A DNA stretch of 64,000 nucleotides from Rubripirellula obstinata (GTDB taxonomy: Bacteria; Planctomycetota; Planctomycetia; Pirellulales; Pirellulaceae): assembly GCF_001642955.1 (NCBI RefSeq), contig NZ_LWSK01000001.1, positions 1 to 64,000 of the forward strand. The letters are read 5' to 3'. Every line of letters begins with the position of its first letter. The stretch's first letter is position 1. Shown in pieces: positions 9,597 to 62,710 of the stretch. Under the pieces are notes generated by a model, which worked only from the letters and a program-made list of their open reading frames with translations, was not told the origin of the DNA and searched no databases. The position numbers were made by a program, and so were the translations under genes.

Positions 9597-9598
9597 CG

Positions 9599-9970: not shown

Positions 9971-9972
9971 GT

Positions 9973-10362: not shown

Positions 10363-10369
10363 AGCAACA

Positions 10370-12681: not shown

Positions 12682-12696
12682 AGTTGGTTCTTAGAA

Positions 12697-13653: not shown

Positions 13654-13657
13654 CGGA

Positions 13658-14032: not shown

Positions 14033-14215
14033 GTGCCCCGATCTCCATTCATTGTAGTCAGTCGGGATTTAGGTGGTTTACCGGCAAAACCACTACTCCC
14101 GTAGCTACATAGCTTCTCGAATACGAAGAACGGCCGCAACCGGGAGAGGGGGAAAGGGTTTCAACGCGTGATTGCTCTAACTTTAGGTATCAATCTGACT
14201 GGACAAGGAACACGG

Positions 14216-17574: not shown

Positions 17575-17579
17575 GAATC

Positions 17580-19874: not shown

Positions 19875-19923
19875 CTTCAAAAATCAATCTCTACAATCAG
19901 AACAACTCACGAAGGAATCAATC

Positions 19924-21501
<1,578 letters not shown>

Positions 21502-38287: not shown

Positions 38288-39064
38288 TCAACCAGAAGTG
38301 AATTCCGTATCAAGTCCCCACGTTCGAGAGGTGACTCGTTCGACAACTTCTCGTTGGTGTTTTACAAGGACATCAAAAAACGAATCCGTGATGTTCCCAT
38401 TCGGTCGCCATTCTTTCCAGGGCATTAAAGTCTCTCCTTTTGCAGAAACTAAGCTTTGGGACCAGATATCGAGATCGCCAATCGAGAGTTGTCGCCGACT
38501 AAGCAACGCTACAATAAACAGTGGGCCAACCTGAGATAGTATTAGGTTTTTCTCGTGGAAAACATGTCCGCCCATCGCCTTGTGCATCGACAGGTCTTTG
38601 TCGAATAGCAGGAAGCAGTGCATCGAAAATGGTAAAACGTCAGAGCGATTTCCGAGCAAATAGTCTCTCCAGTATTTGTGAGCGGACTTGACCTCACTTC
38701 GCTTGGGCAATGACTTTATTCCTCCACAGTATTCAAGCGTGCGAAGTGAAATCGATGTGCAGAAAGCGTGAAACCTTTCGTCGTACTCAGTGGGCGATGG
38801 GTTCTGTTCATCAATTTCAGCCAGCATTTCTTTTGCGTACTTTTCTCCCCGTGAAAAGACTTGTTCACAGTCGTTGCAGTACCAGTAGCGTTTAATCTGC
38901 TTGGGAAAAAAGCGATTGGTTTCTAGGTTTATAAATGCGCCTCCTGTTTCGCGATCGGAGACGAAGTCCCGGTACCCGAACGACGGCCAGATGTGGCTGT
39001 TACGAAGATTTCGATGCTGTTTGCACAGTCGGCAGACGCCAACCTGTTTTTTGACGGAACGCAT
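38288..39064 (-). CDS. HNH-like zinc protein
   Basis: The 258-residue protein begins with an HNH-like module: CRLCKQHRNLRNSHIWPSFG, then YWYCNDCEQVFSRGEKYAKE. Histidine (SHIWP) and both cysteine pairs are present, but the classical NxxxLC segment is modified. The rest is unrecognised. Such proteins often sit in defence regions; here it lies 99 bases from the CBASS operon end on the same strand and may be a separate defence nuclease. Confidence 0.65.
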   Translation of the reverse strand: MRSVKKQVGVCRLCKQHRNLRNSHIWPSFGYRDFVSDRETGGAFINLETNRFFPKQIKRYWYCNDCEQVFSRGEKYAKEMLAEIDEQNPSPTEYDERFHAFCTSISLRTLEYCGGIKSLPKRSEVKSAHKYWRDYLLGNRSDVLPFSMHCFLLFDKDLSMHKAMGGHVFHEKNLILSQVGPLFIVALLSRRQLSIGDLDIWSQSLVSAKGETLMPWKEWRPNGNITDSFFDVLVKHQREVVERVTSRTWGLDTEFTSG

Positions 39065-39162: not shown

Positions 39163-40746
39163 TCACTGAATATTGACTACGAACTCACCACTTCGTGCAA
39201 CACAGGCGTTGTTCTTAACGACAAACGCTTCGACCCAGTGCATTCCGCGATACTCCGTTTTTTCCCGTCTGATTTTCCCCGACTGCCCACCATCATAAAA
39301 CTCACCTCGTAGGTTGCTGGCGTTTGCGGCTTCGTCGCCAGTGTTAACCACTTGCCAATAGACCGTGTAAGGCTTCGGTACGTCTGTTTCGATTTCAAAA
39401 ACTAAATCGGCGTACTTAGGAATCGCGGGTGAGTTGCTTCGGAAAGCAGTCGGGCGAAATCCGTTTCGGGTAAATCGAGCCTTGATGCGTGCTTGGCGTG
39501 TTGTCGGTTGCATGTGCCACCTTGGCGGTTCCCTGTGAGCGACATCGAAACGCAACAGCTGCTTGGCCACTCGACCAAACGCAGAAACCGGCATTCCTTG
39601 CCCTGCGGGAACCCGCCCTTCAAGCTCAGATGCCACTCTCTTTCCGATTGATTCGCCGAATGAAGTTTGCAAGGATCGTTCCAGCTCTTTTGGTGTTGCG
39701 GCATTCAACAATTCGTCGATGTCTTCTTGCAGCCAATTCACCCATTGGAAGAATGCATCCGGCCGTCCGCTGTCTGGTTCATTCCAACGATCCGCAAAAT
39801 TCTCGTTGGGGTTTACGGGGTTGGCGATAACCCACTCATCGTTCTCACATCGAATCAGTCCGGTTTCTTGATGCCGTGTGACTCGATCCAAGAAGTTCGC
39901 TAGTGCGGAATAGACATCGGGCTCCTGTTGATACGCTATCGCTGCCAGAGTCGTGATGATGACTGAAATTGGACGTTCGCCGCTATTAGGTTGTCCTGCA
40001 AAACGGATATCTCGATGTCGTTTCAAAATCTGGACCATTCGTTGAAGTGGCGTTCGTACCAACTGGTCAGGAACTTCATCGACACTGGCAAACACTTCGC
40101 TGTGTTCGCGAAAAATCTGACTTTTCCGCAACGAAGCCGTGCGGTTAAAGATTGGGCGTTGACATTCGGCGAACCAGTCCGCGTAGCCAGCGGGATTTGT
40201 AAATCCCCATTCATACGTGGTCACAGACTTGCTGCGATCGGTTAGAGCGACCGATTTCAAACTCATTGATGGTTCTACACCCGCAAACGTCAATGGATCG
40301 GGAACGCAGGGCAGCACGTCAAGATGGAAGCCCGCGCCGTCTTGTTCCGCGTACAGCAGTGTCCAGCACCGCCGCCCTTCGTCATCAAGTAGGCGGCTGT
40401 AAGTGCCATGTTCTTTAAGCCGGTTGCCGACATGGTGGCGAACTAGCTCGGGACTGGTCTGATGCTTTGGGATAATGATTTCACATGCCAAATCAATGTC
40501 GTAGTCTGATTCAACACCATCGTGAATCGGTCGCACGACGGTCCCTAGCCGGAATGATCCTTGTGGATAGATTGCTGGTGCGCCAGTTGAGCCAGGGTAG
40601 ACGCCTGATTCGAGCCAATTCCCCACGGACGTGTATCTCTCGACCGCTTGCTTGTATTTGCTTGGTGGAATGTCGAGTTCTTTCGCAATGTCTTGCAAGA
40701 TCGAATTGACGATCAGAATTCGGTTGTCGATCATGGTTGAATTCAT
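39163..40746 (-). CDS. cdn: CBASS CD-NTase with AGS-C sensor domain
   Basis: The 527-residue protein starts at ATG 40746, 8 bases after the Cap5 stop. The polymerase-beta-type nucleotidyltransferase core has PQGSFRLGTVVRP (GS motif, residues 63-64), SDYDIDLACE (metal-binding Asp 83 and 85) and FHLDVLPC (third Asp). The C-terminal about 110 residues (YADLVFEIETDVPKPYTVYW onward) match the AGS-C domain fused to SMODS nucleotidyltransferases. It is predicted to make a cyclic oligonucleotide after phage infection and so activate the adjacent HNH-SAVED nuclease. The product cannot be deduced here. Confidence 0.88.
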   Translation of the reverse strand: MNSTMIDNRILIVNSILQDIAKELDIPPSKYKQAVERYTSVGNWLESGVYPGSTGAPAIYPQGSFRLGTVVRPIHDGVESDYDIDLACEIIIPKHQTSPELVRHHVGNRLKEHGTYSRLLDDEGRRCWTLLYAEQDGAGFHLDVLPCVPDPLTFAGVEPSMSLKSVALTDRSKSVTTYEWGFTNPAGYADWFAECQRPIFNRTASLRKSQIFREHSEVFASVDEVPDQLVRTPLQRMVQILKRHRDIRFAGQPNSGERPISVIITTLAAIAYQQEPDVYSALANFLDRVTRHQETGLIRCENDEWVIANPVNPNENFADRWNEPDSGRPDAFFQWVNWLQEDIDELLNAATPKELERSLQTSFGESIGKRVASELEGRVPAGQGMPVSAFGRVAKQLLRFDVAHREPPRWHMQPTTRQARIKARFTRNGFRPTAFRSNSPAIPKYADLVFEIETDVPKPYTVYWQVVNTGDEAANASNLRGEFYDGGQSGKIRREKTEYRGMHWVEAFVVKNNACVARSGEFVVNIQ

Positions 40747-40754
40747 GATTTTTT

Positions 40755-41879
40755 CTAGGAAATAGTTAGGGCAGGCGAGAAGCCACCCGTCGATCGGTTT
40801 TGGTCGTATACGGATAACGGAAGGTCCGCTTTTGGCATCCAAACGCGGCCAACCTCGATCGCCGCTGAAACCGGAACCGCCGGGAATAGCGAAAGTCGTG
40901 CATTTTGCCCGTGTTGGAGCTTGATCGCGTCAAACGTTTTTCGCATCACTTCACGAAACCGCTGTAGGTGCAATTTGCTTTGCAGAAAATCGTTTCCCGG
41001 CTGAGGTGCAGAGATCTTCCAAATGCAGCAATCGTTGCCAATGACATCGTGAATTCGATCGTTCGCAACGTGAGCACTTAGCGATAAGTTGAGAGCTACA
41101 TCTTTGGCATCGGTTGGTCCAGTACAAGTTTGATTGAACTGGAAATCTGTTGGTGGGTCTTGCCATGCCCAACCTGCGGGCTCGCGGTGCAATTGATAGA
41201 CATCAACAGCGTGTATGTCGGAGATCAGTCGCCCCAATTCAATCAACAAAGGCATTGGAGCAAGGCCAAAGACCGAAAGATGCTGAATGTCCTCCGTTAG
41301 TCGCGGAGTCACACGCGAGGCGAATTGCCGTCGTAGGTGCTGGGATTCAATCGACCAATACTCAGACTCATGGTCTCCGAACGAACTGTCTTTCAACCCC
41401 AGCGAAATGGGTTCGTGGCTGGCTGGATACCGCTTTGGAATCATCGCTAACTTCGCATTCGCAAGAGTTAGTGGTGCGCCATGCTCGCCAATTCTGGCAC
41501 CGTAGAATAAAGCGTGCGACTGTCGGTCGGTGTCAATACTTGTCACGGTTCCGATTCGTCGTTCGTGATCGCTCTTCATCTGCTGAAGGCGAGCAACCGG
41601 ATGCCCATCGACATCGATCTTGTCAACGAGTCGGTGATGAACGTCACAGAGCAGCATTAAATTCGAGAGATCTGCTTTCAGCTTCTCTGAAAGAACGGAA
41701 TCGCCACGCGGACCTGCGGGCTTGTCCGCGATAATATGAGCGACATAGGCTTGGTTGAACTCCGCCTTAGTCACCTTGTCACGGTACAGAACTTCATTGC
41801 AGCCTTCGTATTGGCATCGCCCCGCCGCTCTGCCCCAGAGGCAGAGCTTGGTCCATTCAGGAATGTAAGACACTGACAT
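40755..41879 (-). CDS. cap5: Cap5-type HNH-SAVED effector nuclease
   Basis: The 374-residue protein begins at ATG 41879. An N-terminal HNH domain (CQYEGCNEVLYRD, AYVAHIIADKPAGPRGD, NLMLLCDVHHRLVDKID) is followed from about residue 115 by a SAVED domain (HALFYGARIGEHGAPLTLAN, YPASHEPISLGL, and further along LSLSAHVANDRIHDVIG). SAVED binds cyclic oligonucleotides made by the neighbouring CD-NTase; binding should trigger non-specific DNA cleavage and abortive infection. Gene order and spacing support one operon. Confidence 0.9.
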   Translation of the reverse strand: MSVSYIPEWTKLCLWGRAAGRCQYEGCNEVLYRDKVTKAEFNQAYVAHIIADKPAGPRGDSVLSEKLKADLSNLMLLCDVHHRLVDKIDVDGHPVARLQQMKSDHERRIGTVTSIDTDRQSHALFYGARIGEHGAPLTLANAKLAMIPKRYPASHEPISLGLKDSSFGDHESEYWSIESQHLRRQFASRVTPRLTEDIQHLSVFGLAPMPLLIELGRLISDIHAVDVYQLHREPAGWAWQDPPTDFQFNQTCTGPTDAKDVALNLSLSAHVANDRIHDVIGNDCCIWKISAPQPGNDFLQSKLHLQRFREVMRKTFDAIKLQHGQNARLSLFPAVPVSAAIEVGRVWMPKADLPLSVYDQNRSTGGFSPALTIS

Positions 41880-41883
41880 GGGT

Positions 41884-42117
41884 TTAGTGCTTAGTGTCTT
41901 TGGGAGGATGCGGATCGTTCCCATAGCTATCCGAGTCTCGGATCTGTCCGTTGGGTCGGTGAATCACGAGTTCCGTTTCGTTCTTCTGAGCTAGGTCGCG
42001 ACCAGCATCGATTGCCTCACGCTGGGTGCTATGGAGCGACGATGCCCGTTCGCCGCCCTCGCGTTTGACAGCCCATTCGTCTCCGTTGGGCACAACGTGA
42101 TAGTCTTTTTTCGTCAT
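41884..42117 (-). CDS. DUF2188-family protein, first gene of CBASS operon
   Basis: The start at ATG 42117 has AGGAAAT upstream and gives 77 residues; the frame is open to 42222, but that would run over the promoter. The sequence KDYHVVPNGDEWAVKREGGE and STQREAIDAGRDLAQKNETE is the DUF2188 fold. It ends 4 bases before the Cap5 start. DUF2188 proteins have no assigned role; here it may be a CBASS accessory factor. Confidence 0.75.
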   Translation of the reverse strand: MTKKDYHVVPNGDEWAVKREGGERASSLHSTQREAIDAGRDLAQKNETELVIHRPNGQIRDSDSYGNDPHPPKDTKH

Positions 42118-42185
42118 CTGATTTCCTGGGGTAAGGAAGTAAAAGTAGTCGCGGTTGTCAGGTTTCCCGACGCTTCGCCGTATAT

Positions 42186-42233
42186 CTATAACGAACATAC
42201 CCGTTCGCTCGCAGCGTGTCAACTATAACGAAC
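42186..42233 (-). promoter_or_regulatory. CBASS promoter with overlapping operator repeats
   Basis: On the minus strand TTGACA (42217-42222) and TATGTT (42194-42199) are separated by 17 bases, a near-consensus sigma70 promoter about 70 bases before the DUF2188 start. The palindrome CGAAC-N6-GTTCG (42192-42207) covers the -10, and two copies of ctataacgaac (42186-42196 and 42223-42233) flank the promoter 37 bases apart. These fit a repressor site for the divergent XRE protein. Confidence 0.65.
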
Positions 42234-42276: not shown

Positions 42277-42726
42277 ATGGAAGAAGCCCCAAAGCCTGAC
42301 GAAACGCCAAAAATCCCGCTTGCGGAGAATCTCCGTAAGTTCCGTGAGGAAAAGGGGTTGTCGTTGGACCAGGTAGCCAAACAGGCGAAAATCTCCAAGG
42401 CTTATCTTTGGGAACTGGAGAGAGATACCGAGGGAACTAAAAAACCCTCTGCGGTGGTACTGATGCAGATTGCTGATGCACTCTCGCGAACGCTGGCTGA
42501 CCTTCTCAGCCTGCCGTCGGTTCAGACCACAGAGGGGCCGCGAGAAATCCCGGCATCACTCGTTGCGTTTCGGGATCGACTCAAGAGCCAGGGCACGGAG
42601 CTTTCAGAGTCCGACCTTCAAGACCTTGCGAAGACGCGTTTTCGAGGCGGTCAGCCTCAAACGCCCGACGAGTGGCACCAGCTTTACCTCTTGATGGCGA
42701 GTAATTCACGGAAGCCATCAAAATGA
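42277..42726 (+). CDS. XRE-family regulator (CapH-like)
   Basis: The 149-residue protein has an N-terminal helix-turn-helix: LAENLRKFREEKGLSLDQVA and KISKAYLWELERDTEGTKKP, with a C-terminal helical region. It overlaps the metallopeptidase gene by four bases and is divergent from CBASS. A HTH repressor paired with an ImmA/IrrE-like protease is the arrangement of CapH/CapP, in which cleavage of the repressor after DNA damage induces CBASS. No ribosome site is visible, but gatatgct lies 7 bases before the ATG, so the mRNA may be leaderless. Confidence 0.75.
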   Translation: MEEAPKPDETPKIPLAENLRKFREEKGLSLDQVAKQAKISKAYLWELERDTEGTKKPSAVVLMQIADALSRTLADLLSLPSVQTTEGPREIPASLVAFRDRLKSQGTELSESDLQDLAKTRFRGGQPQTPDEWHQLYLLMASNSRKPSK

Positions 42727-43736
42727 GTTCGGGGCATTCAACAACACAGTCTTTTATTGACGAATTGGTTCGCTCAACCGGGGCTAGTTCACCCGAAGAA
42801 GCCATACGCGCGAAAGCACGTCAATTGATTCAAACATGTGAATCCATGTTTGGCCGTCCAGAAATGCCAATTGACGTCGATGTTCTCACTAGCTTGCAGG
42901 GCATTCATGTAAGCGGGGCTCTACCGATCCAAAGTCCAGATGCCGAACTTGCTCCACGTAGCGAGGGTGGCGTCGAAATGCGAGTGCATCCCGATCGACC
43001 CGAGACGCGAAAACGGTTCAGCGTTGCACACGAGATCAGCCATACGTTCTTCCCTGAATACGAACAGAAATCATGGTGTCGAACGGATGCCCGCTATCGG
43101 GATCGAAATGATCCTGACCAATATCTTGAAATGCTCTGCGATATCGGTGCTGCTGAATTGCTGTTTCCGCAGCCATGGTTTTCAGATGACGCGAACCAGG
43201 TATCCAGTGCATCGGGGCTTGTCGCGTTAGCCGACACCTACCATGGATCGCGGGAGGCAACCTTACGTCGGTTTGCCGAGCTTTCAAACGACCCGATCGC
43301 TGCGGTTTTCTTTACTTGGAAACTGAAACCCGTTCAAAAAGGCGTCGTTGACAACGAAGACCAAACCAACCTGTTTGGCCTGAGTCACGATGAACAAATT
43401 CGTGACGCGTTGCAGCTGCGAATTGATTACTCGATAGCGAGTGAGAGCTTCTCGCATCTAGGTCACTACCTACCGCCCGAAAAATCAATCAAGAACGACG
43501 GCCCCATTTTCGAGGCATCATCTACAGCATCTTGTTTTGATGGTGAATGTCATCTTGATTTTGGGCCAGCATCTGGCACGTACAACGTGATGGCGATCCC
43601 GCTGCCTACCGATCGAAACCAACGAGGCCCGAAAGGGGAACACTCGGTTGCTGCAATCGTTCGCCCAGTTGCGGTTCAAAAGGCAAAAAAGAAACGCAGC
43701 GCGACGCCAGACAACTCGCCCACGCTGTTCGACTGA
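42723..43736 (+). CDS. ImmA/IrrE-type metallopeptidase (CapP-like)
   Basis: The 337-residue protein has the zinc protease motif HEISH (residues 103-107, in RFSVAHEISHTFF) and the third-ligand region EMLCDIGAAELLFP. The C-terminal half is uncharacterised and holds cysteines (ASCFDGECHLDFG) that could form a sensor or zinc site. It is coupled to the XRE gene. Predicted role: cleavage of the XRE repressor under stress or infection, derepressing the CBASS operon and possibly the downstream type I RM genes. Confidence 0.78.
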   Translation: MSSGHSTTQSFIDELVRSTGASSPEEAIRAKARQLIQTCESMFGRPEMPIDVDVLTSLQGIHVSGALPIQSPDAELAPRSEGGVEMRVHPDRPETRKRFSVAHEISHTFFPEYEQKSWCRTDARYRDRNDPDQYLEMLCDIGAAELLFPQPWFSDDANQVSSASGLVALADTYHGSREATLRRFAELSNDPIAAVFFTWKLKPVQKGVVDNEDQTNLFGLSHDEQIRDALQLRIDYSIASESFSHLGHYLPPEKSIKNDGPIFEASSTASCFDGECHLDFGPASGTYNVMAIPLPTDRNQRGPKGEHSVAAIVRPVAVQKAKKKRSATPDNSPTLFD

Positions 43737-43803: not shown

Positions 43804-45954
43804 ATGGGAAACCAACTTGCGAACATCAAACGGCTGGAAGCGGATCTGTGGGAAACAGCCGATAACCTGCGTGCGAACTCGAAACTAACCAGTACAGAGT
43901 ACTGCATGCCCGTACTGGGCATCATCTTTTTGCGTCACGCCGCCAACCGATTCGATACCGCAACCGAAGAAATCAAAGCTAGTGGACTAAAGCGTTCACC
44001 CGTAAAAGCGGACTACGTCAAACGTCGTGCTTTGTTTCTGCCGGAAGAGTCTCGCTACGGGTATTTGCTGGATCTCCCCAGCGACACCGACTTGGGCGAA
44101 GCAGTTAACACGGCGATGGACAAAATTGAGGAGTCCTTTGAGCCGCTCGCGGGTGTTCTGCCGCGTGAATACGGCATCTTTGAACGCGAAGTCCTTGAGG
44201 ATCTGTTGCGGGCCTTTGACTCCGAGGCCATGAAGTCGGCCACCGGGGACGTGTTCGGTCGCATCTACGAATACTTCTTGATGAAGTTTGCGATGCAAGG
44301 TGCACAAGACAACGGTGAGTTCTTCACTCCACCGTCATTGGTGCAAACGATCGTGAACATTATCGAACCGACACGAGGCGTCGTTCTCGATCCAGCAGTT
44401 GGATCGGCGGGAATGTTTGTGCAGTCGAGCCATTTCGTCGAGGCGATGGGACAAGACGCTGCTCACAACTTGACGTTCTACGGACAAGAAAAAACGGCGA
44501 CCACAATTCGCTTGGCCAAGATGAACCTGGCAGTCCACGGACTGGAGGGCGACATCGTCGAAGCGAACTCGTTCTACGAAGACGAACACGGCCTGCTCGG
44601 AAAAGCGGATTACGTGATGGCCAATCCACCGTTCAACGTCGATATGGTCGACGCGGAAAAAGTCAAAGGTGACGTGCGATTGCCGTTTGGTTTACCGAGT
44701 GTGAACAAGAAGAAGAAAGTCAGCAACGGAAACTATCTCTGGATTCAATATTTCTACTCGTATCTCAGCGACAAAGGCCGAAGCGGTTTCGTCATGGCGT
44801 CCAGTGCATCAGACGCTGGCGGTGACGACAAGTTGATTCGCCAGCAGTTGGTCGAAACCGGTCACGTCGACGTCATGGTCACAATCGGCACCAATTTTTT
44901 CTACACCCGAACATTGCCTTGCATGCTGTGGTTCTTTGACAAGGGCAAGCCGAAGGAACGACTCGATAAGGTGCTGATGATCGACGCGAGGTCGATTCAT
45001 CGTAAGGTCACCCGTGTGATTAATGATTTTTCGCCGGAACAATTACAAAACATCGCGTCAATCGTTTGGCTACATCGCGGTGAAACTGACCGCTACTTAG
45101 ATCTTGTTCGCGGGTATCTGCTTCAAGCAAATGATGCCGCTGTTGAGCTATCGCCGCTACTCAACGATTTCTCAGATGCAATGGGTGAATTCTACGAGCA
45201 TCTTGATGCTTGGAACGACATCCTTTCAGAAGTCCCGACAAATCCCGACGACTCTGAAGAGGAAGCCAATACTTCTGATCGTGACGCTTACCGTGATGCC
45301 TTTGCCGAATTTGCTGGTCACTGGCACGAATTCACTGAAGCGCTTCCGAACACCCAAAAGGCTATCGACAAGCACGCCAAATGGATTGCAAAAGCCAAGC
45401 TGAAAACGAACAAGCAACAAATCGCGGCTCATGAACAAACCGAAGTGGTGGTCACGGACATTAAATCACTTCGCAAAATCGTGGAGCAGACAACCAAGCT
45501 GGCATCGACCTGTCATGACCTCGCAACCAAAAAGTTGGACGCGAACAAAGCTGAAGGCTGGAATTCGACCGAGACTCGTGATCTGCACAAGCACTTGATC
45601 CGTACGCTGAAAGTTGGTGACGAGAACAATCTCCGAGTGACCCTGGCTGCCGCAATCAAGCAACCTAGCTATTTCCACCGTCAGGTTCATTGGCTTCAAA
45701 GTAAGTTCCCAGACGGGAGCTACAAAGACGTGGAGGGTATATGTAAGTCAACGCCACGCGCAGAAATCGAAGAGAACGACTGGTCTTTGACTCCAGGCCG
45801 GTACGTCGGAGTATTGCCACTGCTTGACGAAGATCCCGATTTCGATTTTGACGATCGCATGATCCAGATTCATTCTCAACTACAGTCGCTCAGTGCTGAT
45901 GCCAGTGAGATTATGAAGTCAATTAGCGGAAATTTCGACGAGTTATTGAGATGA
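43804..45954 (+). CDS. hsdM: type I restriction-modification methylase subunit
   Basis: The 716-residue protein contains the HsdM core: GEFFTPPSLVQTIVNIIEPT, LDPAVGSAGMFVQSSHFV (AdoMet motif I) and DYVMANPPFNVD (catalytic NPPF). It is longer than the usual 500 residues because of a C-terminal helical region of about 250 residues. The stop overlaps hsdS by four bases (ATGA). With HsdS it methylates adenine in a bipartite site. Confidence 0.9.
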   Translation: MGNQLANIKRLEADLWETADNLRANSKLTSTEYCMPVLGIIFLRHAANRFDTATEEIKASGLKRSPVKADYVKRRALFLPEESRYGYLLDLPSDTDLGEAVNTAMDKIEESFEPLAGVLPREYGIFEREVLEDLLRAFDSEAMKSATGDVFGRIYEYFLMKFAMQGAQDNGEFFTPPSLVQTIVNIIEPTRGVVLDPAVGSAGMFVQSSHFVEAMGQDAAHNLTFYGQEKTATTIRLAKMNLAVHGLEGDIVEANSFYEDEHGLLGKADYVMANPPFNVDMVDAEKVKGDVRLPFGLPSVNKKKKVSNGNYLWIQYFYSYLSDKGRSGFVMASSASDAGGDDKLIRQQLVETGHVDVMVTIGTNFFYTRTLPCMLWFFDKGKPKERLDKVLMIDARSIHRKVTRVINDFSPEQLQNIASIVWLHRGETDRYLDLVRGYLLQANDAAVELSPLLNDFSDAMGEFYEHLDAWNDILSEVPTNPDDSEEEANTSDRDAYRDAFAEFAGHWHEFTEALPNTQKAIDKHAKWIAKAKLKTNKQQIAAHEQTEVVVTDIKSLRKIVEQTTKLASTCHDLATKKLDANKAEGWNSTETRDLHKHLIRTLKVGDENNLRVTLAAAIKQPSYFHRQVHWLQSKFPDGSYKDVEGICKSTPRAEIEENDWSLTPGRYVGVLPLLDEDPDFDFDDRMIQIHSQLQSLSADASEIMKSISGNFDELLR

Positions 45955-47147
45955 AATTTTCCGAATTTACTCTGGCAGAATTGGGGCATGTGTCCCGTGG
46001 TCGTTCACGGCATCGGCCACGTCATGCTGACTTCCTCTATGGTGGCAATCATCCATTCTTTCAAACTGGGGACGTTCGCAACGCCAATTTATACCTCACC
46101 GAGTTTTCCCAAACTTATTCGGACGCTGGCCTCGCCCAAAGTAAAAAGTGGCCTGCCGGAACGCTCTGCATTACAATTGCAGCCAACATTGCTGAAGTAG
46201 CGATACTCGGTGTTGATGCGTGTTTTCCTGATAGCATTATCGGTTTTGTAGCTGAGGAACAACGCTGCGATGTACGGTACGTGAAGTATTGGTTTGATGT
46301 TTTTCAAAAGCGATTTCAGCAAGTCTCGCAAGGTGCTGCACAGGACAACCTGAGCCTAGAAAAACTCCTGCGTTTTAGGATCCCTGTTCCTGAGTTATCA
46401 GTTCAGAATCGCATTGCTGACATTCTTTATGCATATGACAAAGCGATTGAGATCAACCAAACTCGCATCGCCTTGCTCGAAGAGGCGGCTGAGCAACTCT
46501 TCACTGAGTGGTTTGTTCGACTTCAATTTCCAGGTAACGAACATGGGGAAATGGTAAAGGGCACACCTAATGGATGGGCAAAAGGAAAAGTAAACGACTT
46601 GGTGGATGTAAAATCTGGATATGCATTTAAGAGCAAATCGTTCTCTGAGTCTGGATTATTCCAGGTCATCACAATTAAACATGTGAAGGACGGTAGATTT
46701 GACCCAGGTAGTGAAAGTTGCATCGATTCACTTCCGCGTGAAATGCCACGTCATTGCATTTTGCAGACAGGCGATATCCTGCTTTCGCTAACAGGAAACA
46801 TTGGGCGTACGTGCCTGGTCACCAGTGATAACTGCCTCTTGAATCAACGTGTCGCGAAACTCGTTCCGAAGTTCGGACTGGGATTTGCTTACTGTTTCTT
46901 TAGGAATGAGATGACAAAAATGAGATTGGAGACAATCTCGACTGGTGTTGCCCAACAGAATCTAAGTCCTATCAAGATGTGCCAACTTGATTTCGATATT
47001 CCGCCTTTAGAACTTTTGAAGCGGTTTGAGGAATTTGCCGACCCAATTTGCAAACTGATAATTTCTTTGCACCAACAAAACCGAAGCCTTGGCGAAGCAC
47101 GAGATTTGTTTCTCCCACGCCTGATGAGCGGAGAAATCGAAGTTTAA
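45951..47147 (+). CDS. hsdS: type I restriction-modification specificity subunit
   Basis: The 398-residue protein has two target-recognition domains (about residues 1-150 and 205-350) separated and ended by conserved helices: QNRIADILYAYDKAIEINQT and IALLEEAAEQLFTEWFVRLQ, and the terminal SLHQQNRSLGEARDLFLPRL. It sets the recognition site for HsdM and HsdR. The coding sequence is distinctly more AT-rich than its neighbours, as expected for a domain-swapping subunit. Confidence 0.88.
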   Translation: MKFSEFTLAELGHVSRGRSRHRPRHADFLYGGNHPFFQTGDVRNANLYLTEFSQTYSDAGLAQSKKWPAGTLCITIAANIAEVAILGVDACFPDSIIGFVAEEQRCDVRYVKYWFDVFQKRFQQVSQGAAQDNLSLEKLLRFRIPVPELSVQNRIADILYAYDKAIEINQTRIALLEEAAEQLFTEWFVRLQFPGNEHGEMVKGTPNGWAKGKVNDLVDVKSGYAFKSKSFSESGLFQVITIKHVKDGRFDPGSESCIDSLPREMPRHCILQTGDILLSLTGNIGRTCLVTSDNCLLNQRVAKLVPKFGLGFAYCFFRNEMTKMRLETISTGVAQQNLSPIKMCQLDFDIPPLELLKRFEEFADPICKLIISLHQQNRSLGEARDLFLPRLMSGEIEV

Positions 47148-47158: not shown

Positions 47159-50100
47159 ATGCCAATGATTACCGACATCAACAGCGAAGACCGAGCAGTA
47201 CAGCAAACGTTCGCCGAGTTCCTTGAAAGCGAACTCGGATGGGACAGTGAATACGCTTGGAATCAAGAGGGCCTTGGCACGGATTCGCTGTTGGGCCGAG
47301 AGTCGATGCGTGAAGTGGTGTTGACTCGTGATCTACGTGACGCGATCAATAAGCTAAACGATGACTTGCCGGACAGTGCCGTCGAAGATGCAGTTCGCAA
47401 GATGACGGGATACGACTTTTCGCGTTCCACGTTTCGTCACAACTCAGAGTTCTACGAATGGATTCGTGATGGTGTGCCGGTGGTATACAAGGACAAAAAT
47501 CGCCGAACCGTTAAACGCAAGGTCAAGGTAATCGACTTTCGTAGCGCGGCAAACAATCGCTTTCTTGTCGTACGCGAACTGAAGATCCAAGGACTTCGCA
47601 GCCCGCACTACAATCGACGTGCCGACCTGGTTTGCTTCGTCAACGGCTTACCCGTAGTGTTCGTTGAACTAAAAAGTGTTTGGACGAATATCCGCAACGG
47701 TTTTGATCAAAACATCGCGGATTACAAGGACACGATTCCGCATGCGTTCTATCACAACGCCTTTCTCGTCGTCAGCAACGGTGACGAAGCCAAATACGGT
47801 TCGATCACCAGCCCATGGGATCACTTCTATCAATGGAAACGCAACGACGAAGACGACGATAAACTCGAAGCTCGTGCCATGCTCAACGGGATGTTTGCTA
47901 AAGACAAATTGTTGGACATCATCGAGAACTTCATTTTGTTTGATGAGAGCAAGGCTGGCCAGGCACGCAAAGTCGTCGCCCGCAATCATCAAGTATTAGG
48001 CGTGAATCGAGCGGTCGATTCCGTGATCCGCCAAGAGGTACTGAAGGAACAAATTCCTATCGATAAGCGACTTGTTCATCGCGTGGGGACGGTGAACGTC
48101 GCCGATCCGCCGATCCTCGAAGACTCACCACAAGAAGAAGCGATCGATGCAAACGTCGTGGCGGAGAAAGCTGAGCGGTACCGAAAGACTCGTGAACTAC
48201 CTTTGATTGAGCGTGCCCATCCTGATCTTGGGCGGCTTGGTGTGTTCTGGCACACGCAGGGAAGCGGCAAATCGTATTCGATGGTTTTCTTTGCGGAGAA
48301 GGTTCGCCGGGTTGTGCCCGGCAATTTCACGTTCTTGGTCATGACCGACCGAGAGGACCTGGACGATCAAATCTATAAGACGTTTGTTGGGTCAGGTGTC
48401 TGTAGCGAAAAAACACCGCGAGCAAGTTCGGCCAAAGCACTCGAAAAGCTGCTAGGTGAGAACCATCGGTTTATGTTCACCATGATCCACAAGTTTAGAC
48501 GGGACGAGATCCCCAAGAAGCCGTACAGCGAGCGTGACGACATCATCGTCATGTCCGACGAAGCCCACCGCACCCAAGCCGGCAAGCTGGCTCGTAATAT
48601 GCGGATAGCGTTGCCGAACGCTTCGTTCATCGGATTTACCGGAACGCCATTGCTGCATGACACCGACTTCTTAACGCAGCGAATCTTTGGTTCGTACGTT
48701 TCGACGTACAATTTCAAGCGTGCCGAGGAAGATGGAGCAACGGTCAAACTCGTCTACGAAAACCGGGGCGAGAAACTCGGGCTTCGTCGAATTGACTTGA
48801 ACGATGCCATTGCTGAAAAGGTCGAGGAGGCGAACCTCGATGTCGACGAAATGGCGAAGTTGGAGAAACTGCTGGGTAAGTCTTACGAAGTCATCACGGC
48901 GGATGAACGACTAGATCGAATCGCTGAAGACTTCGTCCAGCATTGTTCTGCACGCTGGGAAACCGGCAAGATGATGTTGGTGTGCATCGACAAGGTTACT
49001 TGTGCCCGAATGTACGAGCGAATTATCCCGCGATGGAAGGCCAAGGCCAAGCAGATACGAGACGACGCGGACGGTTTTAAGCAAGCAGAAGCGACAGCGA
49101 CCGACCCGATCGCAAAGGAAGCTTTGGCTGAGCAGCGAGACAAGCTGTATGCGCGTGCCGACTGGATGGATGAGACTCTGATTCAGATCATTATCTCTGA
49201 ACAACAGGGTGAAGTTGCCGAGTTCAAGAAATGGAATTTCGACATCAAGCCACACCGTGCGATCATCAAAGAGGGTTTCGCGACTGGGAACAAAGAACGG
49301 ATCGACGTCGAAACGGCGTTCAAGAAGGAAGAACATCCGTTCCGCGTGGCCATCGTATGCGCCATGTGGTTGACGGGATTCGACGTAGAAACTCTTTCAA
49401 CGCTCTACATCGATAAGCCAATGCGTGCCCACACGCTGATGCAAGCGATCGCTCGGGCGAACCGAGTTTCACCAGGCAAGGATTGCGGCGTCATTGTCGA
49501 CTACAACGGAATGCTTGGCAGCTTGCGAAAAGCACTTGCCGACTACGCGGCAACCGTTGCTGGACAAGATATTGGCGACCCCATCGAGCCGATCGAAGTT
49601 CGCATCGCCGCCTTGATCGAAGCCATTGAAGCTGCGGAAAGCCATTTGTCGGGTGCAGGCTTTGATTTAACACGCTTCAACGGAGCGACCGGCTTTGATC
49701 GGATTGAGGCGATCAAGGATGGGGCCGAGGCAGTTAGAGCAACCGAACAAATCAAACGCACTTTTGAGATTTTGGCGACGGAAGTTATCAAACGCTTCCG
49801 AGCCTTGAACATGGAACCAAGCGTTTACCAGTTCGCGGAACGACGCGACAACCTGGAAGCGATCTATAAGAAGGTGTTGCAGAAGCGAACCGTCGCAGAT
49901 GTGACGGCCATCTTAAAGGAGTTGCAAAAGATCGTCAGCGAATCGATTGCCACCGCTGGCCCCGGCTCCGATCACGCTGAGGGATTGACGCTCGACCTAA
50001 GCAAAATCGACTTCGAGAAACTCGCAGACGAATTCGAGAAGAAGGGCACCCGCAAGCGATCCACCGTTCAAGACATTGCCGACCTACTTGAACAGCGTTT

Positions 50101-50590
50101 GGCCGCGATGGTGGCGACCAACCCGCTGCAGATGGATTACTACAAGAAATACCAAGAGATCATCGCCGACTACAACCGAGAGAAAGACCGAACGACGATC
50201 GAAGAAACGTTCCGCCGCTTGATGGAGTTGAACGCAGAACTGGACGACGAGGAAAAGAAGCTTGTATCGGAAGGCCTTAAAGACGAAGAACAGTTCCTGT
50301 TCCAGCTACTTCAACGCGACGACTTAACCAAAGCCGATCGTGAACGACTCAAGCAAGGCAGCCGCCAGCTACTCGAATCGCTCAAGACTCTGATCGGCCC
50401 CATGCACGAGTGGTGGGAAAAAGAGCAAACCCGTGCCGAGATCGAAGTCGAAATCCTCGACCAAATCTTCAACGTCATTCCCATGCCACCGTACAACGAA
50501 ACCGACGCAAAAACCTACGCGGAACAAATCTACCAATACATCTGGCAACGAAGCGAGTCGGGAGCGTTTCCGGTTGTTTCTGCAGCGTAG
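47159..50590 (+). CDS. hsdR: type I restriction endonuclease subunit
   Basis: With the start at ATG 47159, 11 bases after hsdS, the protein has 1143 residues. The N-terminal nuclease has LVCFVNGLPVVFVELKSVW (ExK). The motor has FWHTQGSGKSYSMVFF (Walker A), VMSDEAHRTQAG (DEAH) and GFTGTPLLHD, and a coiled C-terminal part (about 300 residues) should bind the HsdMS complex. It translocates and cuts DNA lacking methylation. A reverse transcriptase gene follows 58 bases later. Confidence 0.92.
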   Translation: MPMITDINSEDRAVQQTFAEFLESELGWDSEYAWNQEGLGTDSLLGRESMREVVLTRDLRDAINKLNDDLPDSAVEDAVRKMTGYDFSRSTFRHNSEFYEWIRDGVPVVYKDKNRRTVKRKVKVIDFRSAANNRFLVVRELKIQGLRSPHYNRRADLVCFVNGLPVVFVELKSVWTNIRNGFDQNIADYKDTIPHAFYHNAFLVVSNGDEAKYGSITSPWDHFYQWKRNDEDDDKLEARAMLNGMFAKDKLLDIIENFILFDESKAGQARKVVARNHQVLGVNRAVDSVIRQEVLKEQIPIDKRLVHRVGTVNVADPPILEDSPQEEAIDANVVAEKAERYRKTRELPLIERAHPDLGRLGVFWHTQGSGKSYSMVFFAEKVRRVVPGNFTFLVMTDREDLDDQIYKTFVGSGVCSEKTPRASSAKALEKLLGENHRFMFTMIHKFRRDEIPKKPYSERDDIIVMSDEAHRTQAGKLARNMRIALPNASFIGFTGTPLLHDTDFLTQRIFGSYVSTYNFKRAEEDGATVKLVYENRGEKLGLRRIDLNDAIAEKVEEANLDVDEMAKLEKLLGKSYEVITADERLDRIAEDFVQHCSARWETGKMMLVCIDKVTCARMYERIIPRWKAKAKQIRDDADGFKQAEATATDPIAKEALAEQRDKLYARADWMDETLIQIIISEQQGEVAEFKKWNFDIKPHRAIIKEGFATGNKERIDVETAFKKEEHPFRVAIVCAMWLTGFDVETLSTLYIDKPMRAHTLMQAIARANRVSPGKDCGVIVDYNGMLGSLRKALADYAATVAGQDIGDPIEPIEVRIAALIEAIEAAESHLSGAGFDLTRFNGATGFDRIEAIKDGAEAVRATEQIKRTFEILATEVIKRFRALNMEPSVYQFAERRDNLEAIYKKVLQKRTVADVTAILKELQKIVSESIATAGPGSDHAEGLTLDLSKIDFEKLADEFEKKGTRKRSTVQDIADLLEQRLAAMVATNPLQMDYYKKYQEIIADYNREKDRTTIEETFRRLMELNAELDDEEKKLVSEGLKDEEQFLFQLLQRDDLTKADRERLKQGSRQLLESLKTLIGPMHEWWEKEQTRAEIEVEILDQIFNVIPMPPYNETDAKTYAEQIYQYIWQRSESGAFPVVSAA

Positions 50591-50648
50591 AAGGTTTCAA
50601 CACGAATCAGCACGCAATTAGATTCATGGTCCAAAAGCGAGAATTCCA

Positions 50649-52244
50649 TTGTCAGAGCAACTTGCAGCAAATCTTGATTTAGAGCTGGCATGGCGGAGAG
50701 TACAACGAGACCTGTCAGAACGTCGGGTTTTTGTGCGTCACCCTTATCTTGAACAGCTATTGTCTCAAGATTTAGCTGGATGGCTTCATGGCATCCGTGA
50801 ACGAATTGCATCAGGCGAATATCAACCAAGTCCATCGCAAATTGTGTGGGCCCCTAAGCCTGGACATTTGGTGCGACCGGGCTCTGACCTTACATTGGAA
50901 GACCAAGTCGTTTTTACGGCTCTTGTCGGTTCAATGATCGAGCAAATCCGTAGTGCATTTGATTGGGAGGGAGAACATCCGGACTATGGCTATCGTCTCA
51001 GGACTGGTGAGGCGACGGATGAAATTTTCGGTCCATGGTTTCACAACCTGCGAACTTTCAACGCGAGTAGCACGGAGTTGATCGATAATGGGCACAGCCA
51101 TGTCGTACTGGCTGACATCGCAGGTTATTACGAGTGCGTCGATCTCTTTACCCTTCGGAGCGATCTTAACGGACTAGGTGTAAATAGCGAGGAGTTGAAC
51201 TTTTTGACTTCAATGCTTCCTCGCTGGTCGCGTGTTCAACGGCGTGGCCTCCCACAGGGTTTCTCAGCGTCTAATCTTCTTGGGAAACTATATCTCAATG
51301 CCGTCGATCTTCAGCTTCGCAACCATGGTTTCATGCATCTGCGTTGGGTTGATGACTTCCGTATTTTCTGTCGATCCGAGTCTGAGGCGATCAATGCTCT
51401 GTCCGTGCTCACCCGAGTTCTTGGCGAGCGAGGACTTGTGATGCAGTCGGCCAAAACTCGCATCTTAGGAGGGAATGACGCTCGGTCCTCTTTCAACGAA
51501 ATCAGAGACATTATCGAACCACTAAACTCGCAGTTTCTAGACCACTTACGAGAGCTGGGGGTGTTGGACGATCCGTCGATCATGGCAGGTGACCTGGATT
51601 CGTTGCTTGAAAGTCTGCATGACGATGCGCCCGTCGACGTTTTGCGAGAAGCGTACCAACAGAATTTCGGCGATAACTCAACTGGCTTCAACAAAACCGT
51701 ATTTCGCTATCTCCTTCGACGTTTAGGGCACGCAGGTGTTGCAAGCATTCTTGATAGTGTCATATCACACTTGCGAGTGCACCCTGAAGAATTTGAAGCA
51801 ATCGCAAATTTTGCCAGTTGCGTACAAGGAAACGAAAGATTGGAAACTGCCTTCGTTGAGTTGAGGCGACAGCACTTGCTTCCACACGACTATCAGGATT
51901 ACCAGTTTTTTCGGTGGATCCTACGGCAAGCAGAGGCTCCGTGCGAACTTGCGATGAATTTGGCTCGAGAACAAGGTATCTCTCATCCGAGAAGCTGGTA
52001 CACGCGTAGTATCGCGAGGGCTGTAGTTGGACGTTGGGGAAATCAAGCTGATCTTGAAAGCATCTTAAACGCGTACCCAAATGCAAATAGCGAGATGGAG
52101 AGAATTGAGATCATTTGCAGCCTACAACGAATGGAGCCATCACGTCGGAACGCTTTTCTCGGCCATGCTGCTGGCGACGGTCGTTTGCCTTCCGAGGCTG
52201 CTCGTTTTGTTCGGCAGAATCGTGTTCAGTGGAACCTTTGCTGA
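50649..52244 (+). CDS. reverse transcriptase, defence-type, helical C-terminus
   Basis: The 531-residue protein starts at TTG 50649. The palm motifs are HVVLADIAGYYECVD (Asp 156), RRGLPQGFSASNLLGKLYLN, and LRWVDDFRIFCRSE (WVDD, Asp 235-236), after WAPKPGHLVRPGSDLTLEDQ. There is no maturase, endonuclease or retron signature. The C-terminal half is helical and resembles the alpha-repeats of Abi-type RTs. It lies in the same direction as hsdR with a 58-base gap. It is probably one of the unknown-group/Abi defence RTs; the exact class cannot be assigned. Confidence 0.82.
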   Translation: MSEQLAANLDLELAWRRVQRDLSERRVFVRHPYLEQLLSQDLAGWLHGIRERIASGEYQPSPSQIVWAPKPGHLVRPGSDLTLEDQVVFTALVGSMIEQIRSAFDWEGEHPDYGYRLRTGEATDEIFGPWFHNLRTFNASSTELIDNGHSHVVLADIAGYYECVDLFTLRSDLNGLGVNSEELNFLTSMLPRWSRVQRRGLPQGFSASNLLGKLYLNAVDLQLRNHGFMHLRWVDDFRIFCRSESEAINALSVLTRVLGERGLVMQSAKTRILGGNDARSSFNEIRDIIEPLNSQFLDHLRELGVLDDPSIMAGDLDSLLESLHDDAPVDVLREAYQQNFGDNSTGFNKTVFRYLLRRLGHAGVASILDSVISHLRVHPEEFEAIANFASCVQGNERLETAFVELRRQHLLPHDYQDYQFFRWILRQAEAPCELAMNLAREQGISHPRSWYTRSIARAVVGRWGNQADLESILNAYPNANSEMERIEIICSLQRMEPSRRNAFLGHAAGDGRLPSEAARFVRQNRVQWNLC

Positions 52245-52246
52245 TA

Positions 52247-53242
52247 CTAGATTAGAATTCGTTCAACCTCATCCAATGTAACAGCATCACTCGTCCGGTT
52301 GTAAAGATTCGTCGTCTTGGACGAGGCGTGGGCGGCCATTTGTTGTGCTTTTTCCAGCGTGCCACCGGCCATCATGTAGGCGGTGATTCCCGAAGCGCGC
52401 ATCGTGTGGTTGTTGAACAGGCCACCAAGACCTGCTTTACGCGAACGACGTTTCACCATCCACCGCGAGTATTCCGCTGCCATCCGATTCTCGGAAAGGT
52501 TGCGTTTCCGATCAAGTGAACGGAACAATGGCGTGCCGTTCTGCCCCCAAAGGTTGGCACCGTCCAAATAGGCGATCATGGCTTCTTCAGCGTGATGCTG
52601 AAGTGGCATTTCATGTTGACGTCCTCCTTTTTCTTTGAGGCGAACCCAGTAACGGCGACCGTTCTGATAAACGTCTTCGACGTTCATCGAGACCGCAGCT
52701 CCGATGCGAGCGAACGTAAAAAGCATCAGCGAAATTAGAGCCTTATCACGCAGGCCACCGACCGTGTCGGTAGAGATCGAGTCAAGGAGAAGCCGTGCAT
52801 CGCCTGGCTGAAGAACGGGCGTCTTCCCTTTGACGATGGTAAGTTTCGGTCCTTTAACCGAGAGCGATGGATTGTGTCGCATCAATCCGCCGGTCACGAA
52901 GTAATCAAACATCATGCGGATCGCGGCAAGGTTCTGCTTGACCGACGCCTTGCTGTAACCGTCCTGCATTTCCTCGATATAGAAAGCGATCATGGTCGGT
53001 TCAATATCGGCAAGCCGTGTCAGGCCACGCCCTTCCATCCAACTGCAAAACCGATCGATAGCACGAAGGTATGCCCGCCGCGTATTTTTGTTGCGAATCG
53101 AGGCGGTGAAAAACTCGACAAACCGCCGTTTTGTGTCGTGACCAGCATTCTCAATTAGTGCTGGAACGGTCGCCCCATCCGTAATCGACGGCGTCACTTG
53201 ACGGGAAGAGAATCCGATGGCTTGATCGCGGTTGGTGAAGTC
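52247..53242 (-). CDS. tyrosine recombinase inside element 2
   Basis: With start ATG 53242 (MDFTNRDQAIG) it has 331 residues and the XerC/D layout: SAM-like domain, LMLFTFARIGAAVSMN (Arg), NNHTMRASGITAY (HxxR), AAHASSKTTNLYNRTSD (His and nucleophile Tyr). It is convergent with the RT gene. No att repeats are obvious around it. It could be a cassette or plasmid-type recombinase left by an insertion, or a dimer-resolution enzyme of element 2. Confidence 0.85.
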   Translation of the reverse strand, partial: DFTNRDQAIGFSSRQVTPSITDGATVPALIENAGHDTKRRFVEFFTASIRNKNTRRAYLRAIDRFCSWMEGRGLTRLADIEPTMIAFYIEEMQDGYSKASVKQNLAAIRMMFDYFVTGGLMRHNPSLSVKGPKLTIVKGKTPVLQPGDARLLLDSISTDTVGGLRDKALISLMLFTFARIGAAVSMNVEDVYQNGRRYWVRLKEKGGRQHEMPLQHHAEEAMIAYLDGANLWGQNGTPLFRSLDRKRNLSENRMAAEYSRWMVKRRSRKAGLGGLFNNHTMRASGITAYMMAGGTLEKAQQMAAHASSKTTNLYNRTSDAVTLDEVERILI

Positions 53243-53451
53243 CATTTCGTTGAGGGGAAGAATACAGTGGATAACGTCCTTTATCGGATGCCTTGATAAT
53301 CCCACGAATCTGCGTTTCAAACAATTGACGAACGCTCTATCTGTGGCCAGACGCCATTACACCGCGCAAGCGTCGGTTGGCTACAATGTGTCGCAGCAAT
53401 ACTCACAAAAAGCAGAGCCATTTTTGGCAGCGAATGATTCGAGCGAGGAAA

Positions 53452-60978: not shown

Positions 60979-62631
60979 ATGCCGCGCAAACCGGAACTTG
61001 GCAACGTGCAGGTGTATCCGAATCGTCCGCTTACCAAAGCGGACAAGACGGGCTACGTCTTGCAGTTTTATTGTCCGATCCGTGGCAAACGGATTCGTCG
61101 TAGCTGCGGTACTCGTGACCGCAGGGAGGCTCGCAAATTGATGCGTGAATGCCGCGAGCGATTGCTCGATGGTAGCTACGTTCAATCTGGTGGAGCCGTC
61201 TCGGCCAACGATGAACGAACGCGGCCCGCCGTGGTAGGCGTCGCGATTTCGTCGGAGGCAGAAGTTGAAACGGATGACAAGACGTGGGAGTGGTGTTACC
61301 AAAAGTACCGCCACTTCCGCACCGCTCGAACCAAGAAAGACTCGTTCAAACATTCTCGGTCTCGGTTGGGAATCGCCGAACGGATCTTTCGAGGCTACTT
61401 CGATGATCGAGGTCGGGACGGCGAGTTGCTCGTCAAACATGTGATGACGTTGGATATGATTGAGTACCTGCAAGAACGACTGTTGGCCGGGGATGAGTGT
61501 CGCTATGACTCTCGTTCTCCCAATACCGTCAACAGCACAACCGCTAGCGTGATGGCGTTCGTTCGCTTTTGCGCCAAGCGGGAATGGATCGAACGGGTGC
61601 CCGATATTGAACGACTAAGCGTCAACGATGTGATGAAAGGACGCCCCATCACCGGGGAGGAATTTGATCGCATGCTTGCCGTGACTCACAAGTTGGTTGG
61701 CAAGGATGAAGCGGCAGCTTGGCAGTTCGCGTTGCGAGTTGTCTGGTTCAGTGGATTCCGCGTCGGTGACCTGATGGATTTCCACTGGGAAGACGAACGG
61801 CATATTCGTCCGGTTTGGTCGAATCAGCCGGGAGTCTTTCCGACCATCACTGTCCCCTCTTCCCAAAAGAACGGCAAGGTTCAAGAGATCCCCATGCTCC
61901 CCGAGCTGGACGAATTCTTGAGCAGTGTTCCTGTTGAAGAGAGAAGTGGCTGGATCGTCGATCCCCCACCCCTGCATTGTCAGGTGAAGGGCGAATCGGT
62001 CTGGTTCCAGCCATGCCGTAGCGATCTGATCGCTTGGGCCAAGCGGTACAGCAATCTTGAGATCGCCGCCGTGTGCGGTGTGACCGAGACGACCGTCCGC
62101 AATTGGCTCAAACGAATGAAATTCCGGCGGAGCCGTGAATTCAAAGTTTCGACCGGTTCAATTCCTGCTAAGGCGATTGCCAAAGCTAAGGAACGATCCG
62201 AGCGAGGCACGGGAAGCGTTGTGACACCACGATCACAGCGACTAACCAAGGACCGTGTGGGCTGCATTATCGCCATGATTGGCGAAGAGGCAGGCGTGAT
62301 TGTTCGCACGGAAGATGAGCGAACAAAATCGCGGGTGAAGTACGCCAGTGCTCACGACATTCGTCGCGGCTGTGCCCAGCGTTTAATCAACGCAGGGGTG
62401 ACGGCTGAGACGCTGAAGGTCGTGATGCGGCACGCAGACTTTGCCACCACCGAGAAGTACTACGGCGCGACGCGGTCGGCCCAGGCTGCTGCCAGCGAAG
62501 TACGTCAAAAGATGACCACTGAAGCACCTACGGATGCATTAGTGGGTCGATTAGTGGGTCGAAAAGAAAAAGCTCCCCAGCTTAACGCTGAGGAGCTTTT
62601 GAAGCTAAAGGCTTTGCTTGAAAGGCTTTAG
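60979..62631 (+). CDS. tyrosine integrase of element 2, with inserted HTH
   Basis: A strong ribosome site (aaaggaggt) precedes the ATG. The 550-residue protein has the catalytic set WFSGFRVGDLMDF (Arg 261), HDIRRG (His 459, Arg 462), RHADFATTEKYYG (His 485, Tyr 494/495). Between the first and second boxes lies an extra stretch with a helix-turn-helix (WAKRYSNLEIAAVCGVTETT, residues 353-372, then VRNWLKRM). The last 35 residues are encoded across a 26-bp repeat also found at the left end. The gene ends 3 bases before the att core; the tRNA-Arg is its target. Confidence 0.9.
   Translation: MPRKPELGNVQVYPNRPLTKADKTGYVLQFYCPIRGKRIRRSCGTRDRREARKLMRECRERLLDGSYVQSGGAVSANDERTRPAVVGVAISSEAEVETDDKTWEWCYQKYRHFRTARTKKDSFKHSRSRLGIAERIFRGYFDDRGRDGELLVKHVMTLDMIEYLQERLLAGDECRYDSRSPNTVNSTTASVMAFVRFCAKREWIERVPDIERLSVNDVMKGRPITGEEFDRMLAVTHKLVGKDEAAAWQFALRVVWFSGFRVGDLMDFHWEDERHIRPVWSNQPGVFPTITVPSSQKNGKVQEIPMLPELDEFLSSVPVEERSGWIVDPPPLHCQVKGESVWFQPCRSDLIAWAKRYSNLEIAAVCGVTETTVRNWLKRMKFRRSREFKVSTGSIPAKAIAKAKERSERGTGSVVTPRSQRLTKDRVGCIIAMIGEEAGVIVRTEDERTKSRVKYASAHDIRRGCAQRLINAGVTAETLKVVMRHADFATTEKYYGATRSAQAAASEVRQKMTTEAPTDALVGRLVGRKEKAPQLNAEELLKLKALLERL
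62536..62561. repeat. right subterminal repeat of element 2
   Basis: Identical over 26 bp to 21433-21458, with two direct copies of attagtgggtcg. It lies inside the integrase 3' end, 73 bases from the att core, and encodes LVGRLVGR. Candidate arm-type integrase site. Confidence 0.8.
62568..62600 (+). terminator. hairpin in the integrase 3' end
   Basis: The arms aaaagctcc and ggagctttt plus an inner cagc/gctg pair form a strong stem. It overlaps the last codons of the integrase and could terminate its transcript before the tRNA gene. Confidence 0.55.

Positions 62632-62634: not shown

Positions 62635-62710
<76 letters not shown>

Follow-up and report, generated by a model that had tools for sequence, protein, structure and literature searches.

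Abi reverse transcriptases (RTs) make untemplated DNA in a protein-primed reaction (PMC9508834), and the class 1 RTs studied to date likewise produce DNA without a nucleic-acid template, sometimes with protein as the primer (PMC13174585, PMC9508834). AlphaRep domains are described as typical of class 1 DRTs, and the structure of one RT of this kind, DRT3b, has a conserved tyrosine, Tyr666, joined to the DNA product (PMC13174585). Reports of untemplated, protein-primed synthesis extend to class 3 DRTs (PMC13275509); a reading of an RT as untemplated is therefore independent of its class. Abortive infection, strictly defined, may not be how AbiA and AbiK act (PMC11077055), and both had been noted near restriction-modification (RM) genes (PMC8934634). 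In the literature searched, UG21 is mentioned as an RT group in one paper, which names it a class with few representatives (PMC8934634), and no functional study of it was found.

A second line of work concerns the control of defence operons. Single-stranded DNA (ssDNA) activates the peptidase CapP, which cleaves the repressor CapH, and CapK/CapS pairs located between RM operons and CBASS or other immune operons have been proposed as coordinators (PMC13373217). The locus described here brings these two subjects together. Its RT is a further member of UG21, and its interest lies in its apparent role as exchangeable cargo beside an ssDNA-sensing controller.

An intact UG21 reverse transcriptase

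The RT gene is the last of six plus strand genes, in the order capH-capP-hsdM-hsdS-hsdR-RT, in the window, by which we mean the whole 64,000-nucleotide stretch of DNA that was analysed (Table 1). Its reading frame is open at full length and begins 58 bases beyond the hsdR stop codon (50590) on the same strand, which agrees with the spacing and direction given in the preliminary description of this DNA. The RRGLPQG and RWVDD motifs reported there are both present in the protein, and the catalytic residues D156, D235 and D236 are intact and invariant in seven of seven aligned RTs. Three catalytic aspartates are common to RTs in general and are no mark of class 1 DRTs alone. RVT_1 was the sole Pfam match at E 0.01 (E 3.7e-14). 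The best PADLOC model was RT_UG21 (E 3.7e-177, 588 bits), with residues 6-524 aligned to profile positions 2-502 of 503, and the runner-up, UG19, scored 178 bits. The RVT_1 match and the full-length UG21 match therefore identify the frame as an RT and not a chance open reading frame (ORF).

The group II maturase model TIGR04416 scored 76 bits, far below its cut-off of 300, and retron models were absent among the best 25 of 65 PADLOC families. These results bear out the earlier statements that the protein lacks maturase features and resembles defence RTs of the Abi and unknown groups, and within those 25 families they agree with the stated lack of retron features. Judged by its sequence, it is an intact defence-type reverse transcriptase of group UG21 and not a group II maturase. 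Its identity to three other UG21 proteins is 22-26%, and two of these are ~635 aa in length, ~100 aa longer than the window RT. As to the phylogenetic placement that had been proposed as a check, UG21 is the best profile, but a tree of nine RTs did not support a single UG21 clade: the forks around the window RT were open, and L008 and L014 formed a separate starred pair. Another RT is encoded in the same genome (G000, contig C242; L002 1387-2586); its best PADLOC match is the general RT model (263 bits), and we take it to be a group II intron RT.

Table 1 Features of the defence module and the surrounding island (window coordinates)
Feature	Position	Strand	Remarks
Left attachment-like repeat	21279-21324		46 bp
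CBASS oligonucleotide cyclase	39163-40842	-	
CBASS effector	40755-41924	-	SAVED + HNH-type endonuclease model
DUF2188 ORF	41884-42222	-	Between CBASS effector and capH; Pfam match from residue 41
Operator-like exact repeat pair CTATAACGAAC	42186-42196 and 42223-42233		11 bases; between divergent operons
capH-like HTH repressor gene	42277-42726	+	PADLOC capH, 62 bits
capP-like M78 peptidase gene	42723-43736	+	PADLOC capP, 70 bits
hsdM	43804-45954	+	N6 adenine methylase subunit
hsdS	45951-47147	+	Specificity subunit; N-terminal part unlike that of G145
hsdR	47159-50590	+	ORF opens at 47048; start Met of the G145 ORF corresponds to 47159
hsdR-RT gap	50591-50648	+	58 bases; no promoter- or terminator-like site, no unusual RNA fold
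RT, group UG21	50649-52244	+	531 aa; TTG start; catalytic D156/D235/D236
XerD-like tyrosine recombinase gene	52247-53320	-	Convergent with RT; right limit of the module common to window and G145
Integrase gene	60979-62631	+	Phage_integrase family; abuts tRNA
Right attachment-like repeat	62635-62680		46 bp; over 3' part of tRNA-Arg
tRNA-Arg (ACG)	62636-62710	-	Presumed integration site

In a profile of four UG21 proteins, residues 446-491 matched designed alphaRep chains (E 1e-5 for matches that had a passing stretch and lower for those that had none), but the window protein alone had no alphaRep match. The helical C-terminal half that had been described is thus weakly supported, by the family profile and not by the single sequence. 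An AF2 model built from the single sequence was too poor for use (pLDDT 38). With profiles of the four UG21 proteins and of seven RTs, the RT core matched the AbiK chains 7r06 and 7z0z as well as chain 7r08, which we take to be Abi-P2, these being a few of many RTs that it matched; in both cases it fitted the RT-Cas1 and group II RTs in the PDB better than AbiK. We infer that UG21 belongs to class 1, the class of this group being unnamed in the literature searched. Tyrosines 58, 113, 160, 215 and 476 are invariant in four of four UG21 proteins. Tyr58, Tyr113, Tyr160 and Tyr215 presumably fall in general RT motifs and were for this reason given no weight as priming residues. Tyr476, which lies in the C-terminal half and outside those motifs, is a candidate priming residue, in loose parallel to DRT3b and its Tyr666.

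The operon and its control region

The gene pair that the preliminary description called an XRE/peptidase pair corresponds to CapH and CapP. It lies between the divergent CBASS operon and hsdMSR-RT, and its two ORFs overlap by 4 bases, forming an adjacent HTH and M78 peptidase pair beside a defence operon. The Pfam match of the DUF2188 ORF begins at residue 41, so its true start is probably later than the ORF start. An ORF behind the CBASS cyclase (38288-39064, minus strand, 258 aa) had no Pfam or PADLOC match.

Between the divergent operons is an exact 11-base repeat pair, CTATAACGAAC, with copies 37 bases apart, and one such repeat within 241 bases would arise by chance with a probability of ~0.006 by simple arithmetic. 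The pair is a possible CapH operator. Its conservation was rejected as a sign of operator function, since the whole stretch before capH is conserved in the nearest relative, G145 (22/22 bases in the repeats and 71/75 in the rest).

No promoter-like or terminator-like site was found by the scan in the hsdR-RT gap. Promoter-like sites on the plus strand are present inside hsdS (47035) and hsdR (49239), and terminator-like sites on this strand lie within capP, hsdM, hsdS and hsdR. The scan totals, 7 promoter-like and 16 terminator-like sites, were within one standard deviation of those in shuffled sequence (9.0 and 13.6, respectively), and the scan therefore speaks neither for nor against a single transcript. 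Weak coupling of the RT to hsdR would fit both the TTG start and the 58-base gap. The position of the RT as last of six genes on one strand, with no terminator-like site in the gap before it, makes joint control with the RM genes plausible. The control half of the earlier proposal, that the RT shares action or control with the RM system and the CapH/CapP pair, is thus tenable; joint action with the RM enzyme is not supported, other genes taking the place of the RT in G145.

An exchangeable slot, its island and the wider UG21 group

HsdR relatives were present in 15 genomes of 241 in the family, the window's own included (E <= 1e-150), and the neighbourhoods from seven of the 14 other genomes were compared as eight stretches. 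In these eight stretches tblastn with nine RT proteins (E <= 0.01) found no RT. The nearest relative, G145, is of another genus and has the order cyclase-SAVED-capH-capP-hsdM-hsdS-hsdR-other genes-recombinase; its locus lies on two contigs broken inside hsdR, and the gene order across the break is inferred. Amino acid identity to the window proteins is 73% for the cyclase, 77% for SAVED, 100% for CapH, 98.5% for CapP and 81% for HsdM. At the nucleotide level capHP are 97-99% and most of hsdR 91-97% identical, while the blocks of hsdS are at 36-71% and CBASS at 65-79%. Homology extends to the stop codon of hsdR (window 50589) and then restarts in the recombinase (52257); the G145 counterpart of this gene is 79% identical in nucleotides, and its longest open frame, of 197 codons, falls short of full length. 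In the place of the RT are two overlapping ORFs (L032 923-1816 and 1813-2550) that had neither a Pfam match at E 0.01 nor a PADLOC match at E 0.001 and are a candidate unknown defence pair.

The comparison with G145 therefore indicates that specificity and cargo were swapped while controller and motor stayed nearly unchanged. Because a near-identical capHP-hsdR module carries other genes at this site, the RT is, as far as sequence comparison goes, exchangeable cargo and not integral to the RM system. The modules of the window and G145, in which capHP and hsdR are near-identical and the cargo 3' of hsdR differs, constitute a natural experiment, which suggests that an RM operon can have an exchangeable accessory slot for defence genes, DRTs included. 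Two related RM operons each have an HTH gene directly 3' of hsdR (L036 13403-13759 and L037 6940-7296), the former with a weak PADLOC capH match (30 bits); in these relatives the controller may lie at the opposite end of the operon.

The module is enclosed by two identical 46-bp repeats that are 41.4 kb apart and surround CBASS-capHP-hsdMSR-RT, together with genes for a coupling-protein-like ATPase, a replication-relaxation protein and a RadC-like protein. In our view the RT module is carried as cargo by a tRNA-Arg island that is putatively mobile. A protein-kinase gene (27030-28301; Pkinase E 2.4e-33) is also found between the repeats. The tRNA-Arg end recurs as a 17-base copy at 6174-6190, and a second integrase-like ORF (19825-21501) overlaps the 46-bp copy at 21279; these two features suggest two tandem islands at the same tRNA.

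Homologues of the RT were sought in genomes of one phylum and in plasmids, with plasmids and phages as the sources beyond that phylum. The genome samples of the UG21 profile searches overlap, all are of the one phylum, and an RT was counted as UG21 where its best PADLOC model was UG21. At E 1e-60 the window's own genome was the only one of the 241 in the family with a UG21 RT. At E 1e-50 it was again the only one of 392, was joined by G823 in a sample of 397, and UG21 was found in G823 of 102 genomes, in G957 of 75 and in none of 20. Samples of 170, 23 and 168 genomes gave none at E 1e-70, in searches that recovered no control genome either, so that absence is not implied. Three further RTs were tried and not accepted as UG21: that of G392 fits no group well (UG21, 214 bits; UG9, 193 bits), that of G475 fits UG20 (742 bits) and that of G947 fits UG9 (588 bits). 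The fourth UG21 RT (545 bits) comes from an archaeon, Halomontanus rarus, where a plasmid encodes it.

Searches of plasmids by tblastn with the window RT gave 462 records, two of which had at least 80% of the query covered, the Halomontanus UG21 RT and a UG20 RT from a Manganitrophus plasmid. The Halomontanus RT as query gave 1684 records and one with at least 80% covered, itself, and the L014 RT gave 107 records and none with at least 80% covered. Phage records yielded seven matches (42-51% of the query covered, <=26.5% identity). Peptide-pattern searches of genome and viral contigs found no close relatives of the RT.

The other three UG21 RTs lie in or near defence genes. Neither outcome that the preliminary description had named as contrary to its reading, placement within group II intron or retron RTs or homologues never near defence genes, was thus observed. 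In G957 (L014) the genes run HsdR-Fic-HsdM-HsdS-RT in one direction, with the RT 260 bases 3' of hsdS; the HsdR and HsdM proteins there fit PADLOC models other than those of the window. The RT of G823 adjoins a PDC-S11 defence-candidate gene, with an ArdC-like gene and an integrase also nearby and an orphan-type DNA methyltransferase ~3.3 kb off on the other strand; none of 10 ORFs tested with PADLOC was recognised as a type I subunit. The Halomontanus RT is part of no RM operon; its neighbours on the plasmid are a helicase and an ArdC-like gene, and BREX genes lie ~5 kb away. That one of the three other UG21 RTs directly follows a type I RM operon hints at a preference of UG21 for such operons.

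Groups related to UG21 appear to share a similar habit. The G392 RT (L010) is flanked by a DrmD-like helicase and by type III RM genes, and the G475 UG20 RT (L011 670-2319) lies between pglZ and brxD, with brxC further upstream. Counting against such a habit is the Manganitrophus UG20 RT (744 bits), for which the annotation of the 25 kb shown includes neither RM nor BREX genes. The L010 cluster (6827-18866) groups the RT with the DrmD-like helicase, type III Mod and Res, and an AlbA_2 protein.

Interpretation and comparison with known systems

The locus admits several explanations. The RT could be an independent passenger, a stand-alone defence RT brought in by island shuffling and served by its own promoter, in which case its position would be uninformative about control by CapHP or the RM genes. 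The other genes in the G145 slot and the lack of an RT in the eight stretches around related HsdR genes fit this view, as do the two of three other UG21 loci (L005 and L008) that are not behind an RM operon and the promoter-like site within hsdR. The shared strand, the 58-base gap with neither a promoter- nor a terminator-like site, and the one UG21 locus directly behind a type I RM operon argue against it, and we regard the passenger as an unlikely explanation that still deserves serious attention. The RT might instead be a working partner of the type I enzyme, acting for example on its cleavage products. RT and RM genes are adjacent in both the window and L014, the related RTs of G392 and G475 cluster with type III RM genes and between pglZ and brxD, respectively, and AbiK and AbiA, as cited above, lie near RM genes. 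However, the G145 module keeps near-identical capHP and hsdR with other genes in the slot, and neither the gene order nor the best subunit models are the same in the two type I systems with a UG21 RT. On the G145 evidence we set an obligate partnership aside, and a working partnership of any kind seems to us highly improbable.

A template supplied by a neighbouring RNA, as in DRT2, DRT9 and DRT10, would give the RT a different mode of action, and several DRT groups are described as working with an ncRNA template (PMC12632851). Yet only 58 non-coding bases upstream and 2 bases before the convergent recombinase gene downstream flank the RT. The preliminary description had pointed to conserved RNA structure in the flanks as something to look for, and none was detected: eight flank stretches of up to 150 bases from the four UG21 loci gave no fold signal (z-scores +0.66 to -1.83), and Rfam, the sole means by which msr/msd RNA was looked for, found tRNA only over 38000-64000. 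A template RNA beside the RT is unlikely and one overlapping the genes is conceivable, but overall we give little credence to an RNA-templated enzyme. The lone UG21 match among the 241 family genomes could be taken as the mark of a remnant without function. Full-length open frame, catalytic residues and full-length profile match speak against decay, and of all the explanations this one strikes us as the most far-fetched.

We consider it fairly probable that the RT is a UG21 defence enzyme carried as exchangeable cargo by a defence module of a tRNA-Arg island, controlled by CapHP and acting in the manner of AbiK. The module has CBASS on one side and, on the other, capH-capP, the type I RM genes and one cargo slot. 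Family membership, catalytic residues, gene order, the repeat pair, the island-end repeats and the replacement of the RT in a relative are observed. According to this model, CapH would repress the divergent control region, and CapP would cut CapH when phage attack or restriction generates ssDNA. Cleavage of CapH would then raise the hsdMSR-RT transcript and derepress CBASS. The RT would act in an AbiK-like manner, with a hydroxyl residue of its own, most likely a tyrosine, priming DNA synthesis without a nucleic-acid template and the growing strand held by helical repeats of the C-terminal half. The resulting non-genomic DNA could block phage growth or stop the cell. Defence would thereby have two tiers, with restriction acting first and untemplated DNA from the RT as a later, further block. 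Co-transcription, CapH binding, untemplated synthesis, the priming residue and the antiphage effect are predictions of the model. The observations of the preliminary description are therefore confirmed, and its interpretation is supported in part.

The locus pairs an RT that may make ssDNA with a regulator that senses it, a link that is directly testable. In a bolder version of the model, ssDNA made by the RT would itself bind CapP, CapH would be destroyed, and expression of CBASS and the RM-RT operon would increase jointly. On this view the RT would link restriction to CBASS suicide by amplifying the signal and would not be a direct effector. We put forward this feed-forward loop as a long shot.

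Among known systems, the UG21 RTs of PADLOC are the closest by profile, which the window RT matches at full length, but its identity to the other members is low and it falls ~100 aa short of two of them. As in other CapH/CapP-controlled defence operons, capH-capP stand at the head of an operon divergent from CBASS; the difference is in the setting of the pair, which has CBASS to one side and, to the other, a type I RM operon carrying an RT as cargo. The likeness to DRT3b (UG8), the class 1 partner of DRT3, would consist in the invariant C-terminal-half Tyr476, whereas neither a partner RT nor an ncRNA is seen at the window RT. AbiK and Abi-P2 resemble the UG21 RT in the core at the profile level and, presumably, in a C-terminal half of helical repeats. 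The match is confined to that core, however, where it is weaker than those to RT-Cas1 and group II RTs, and the priming residue of AbiK, Tyr44, is not placeable in the UG21 RT.
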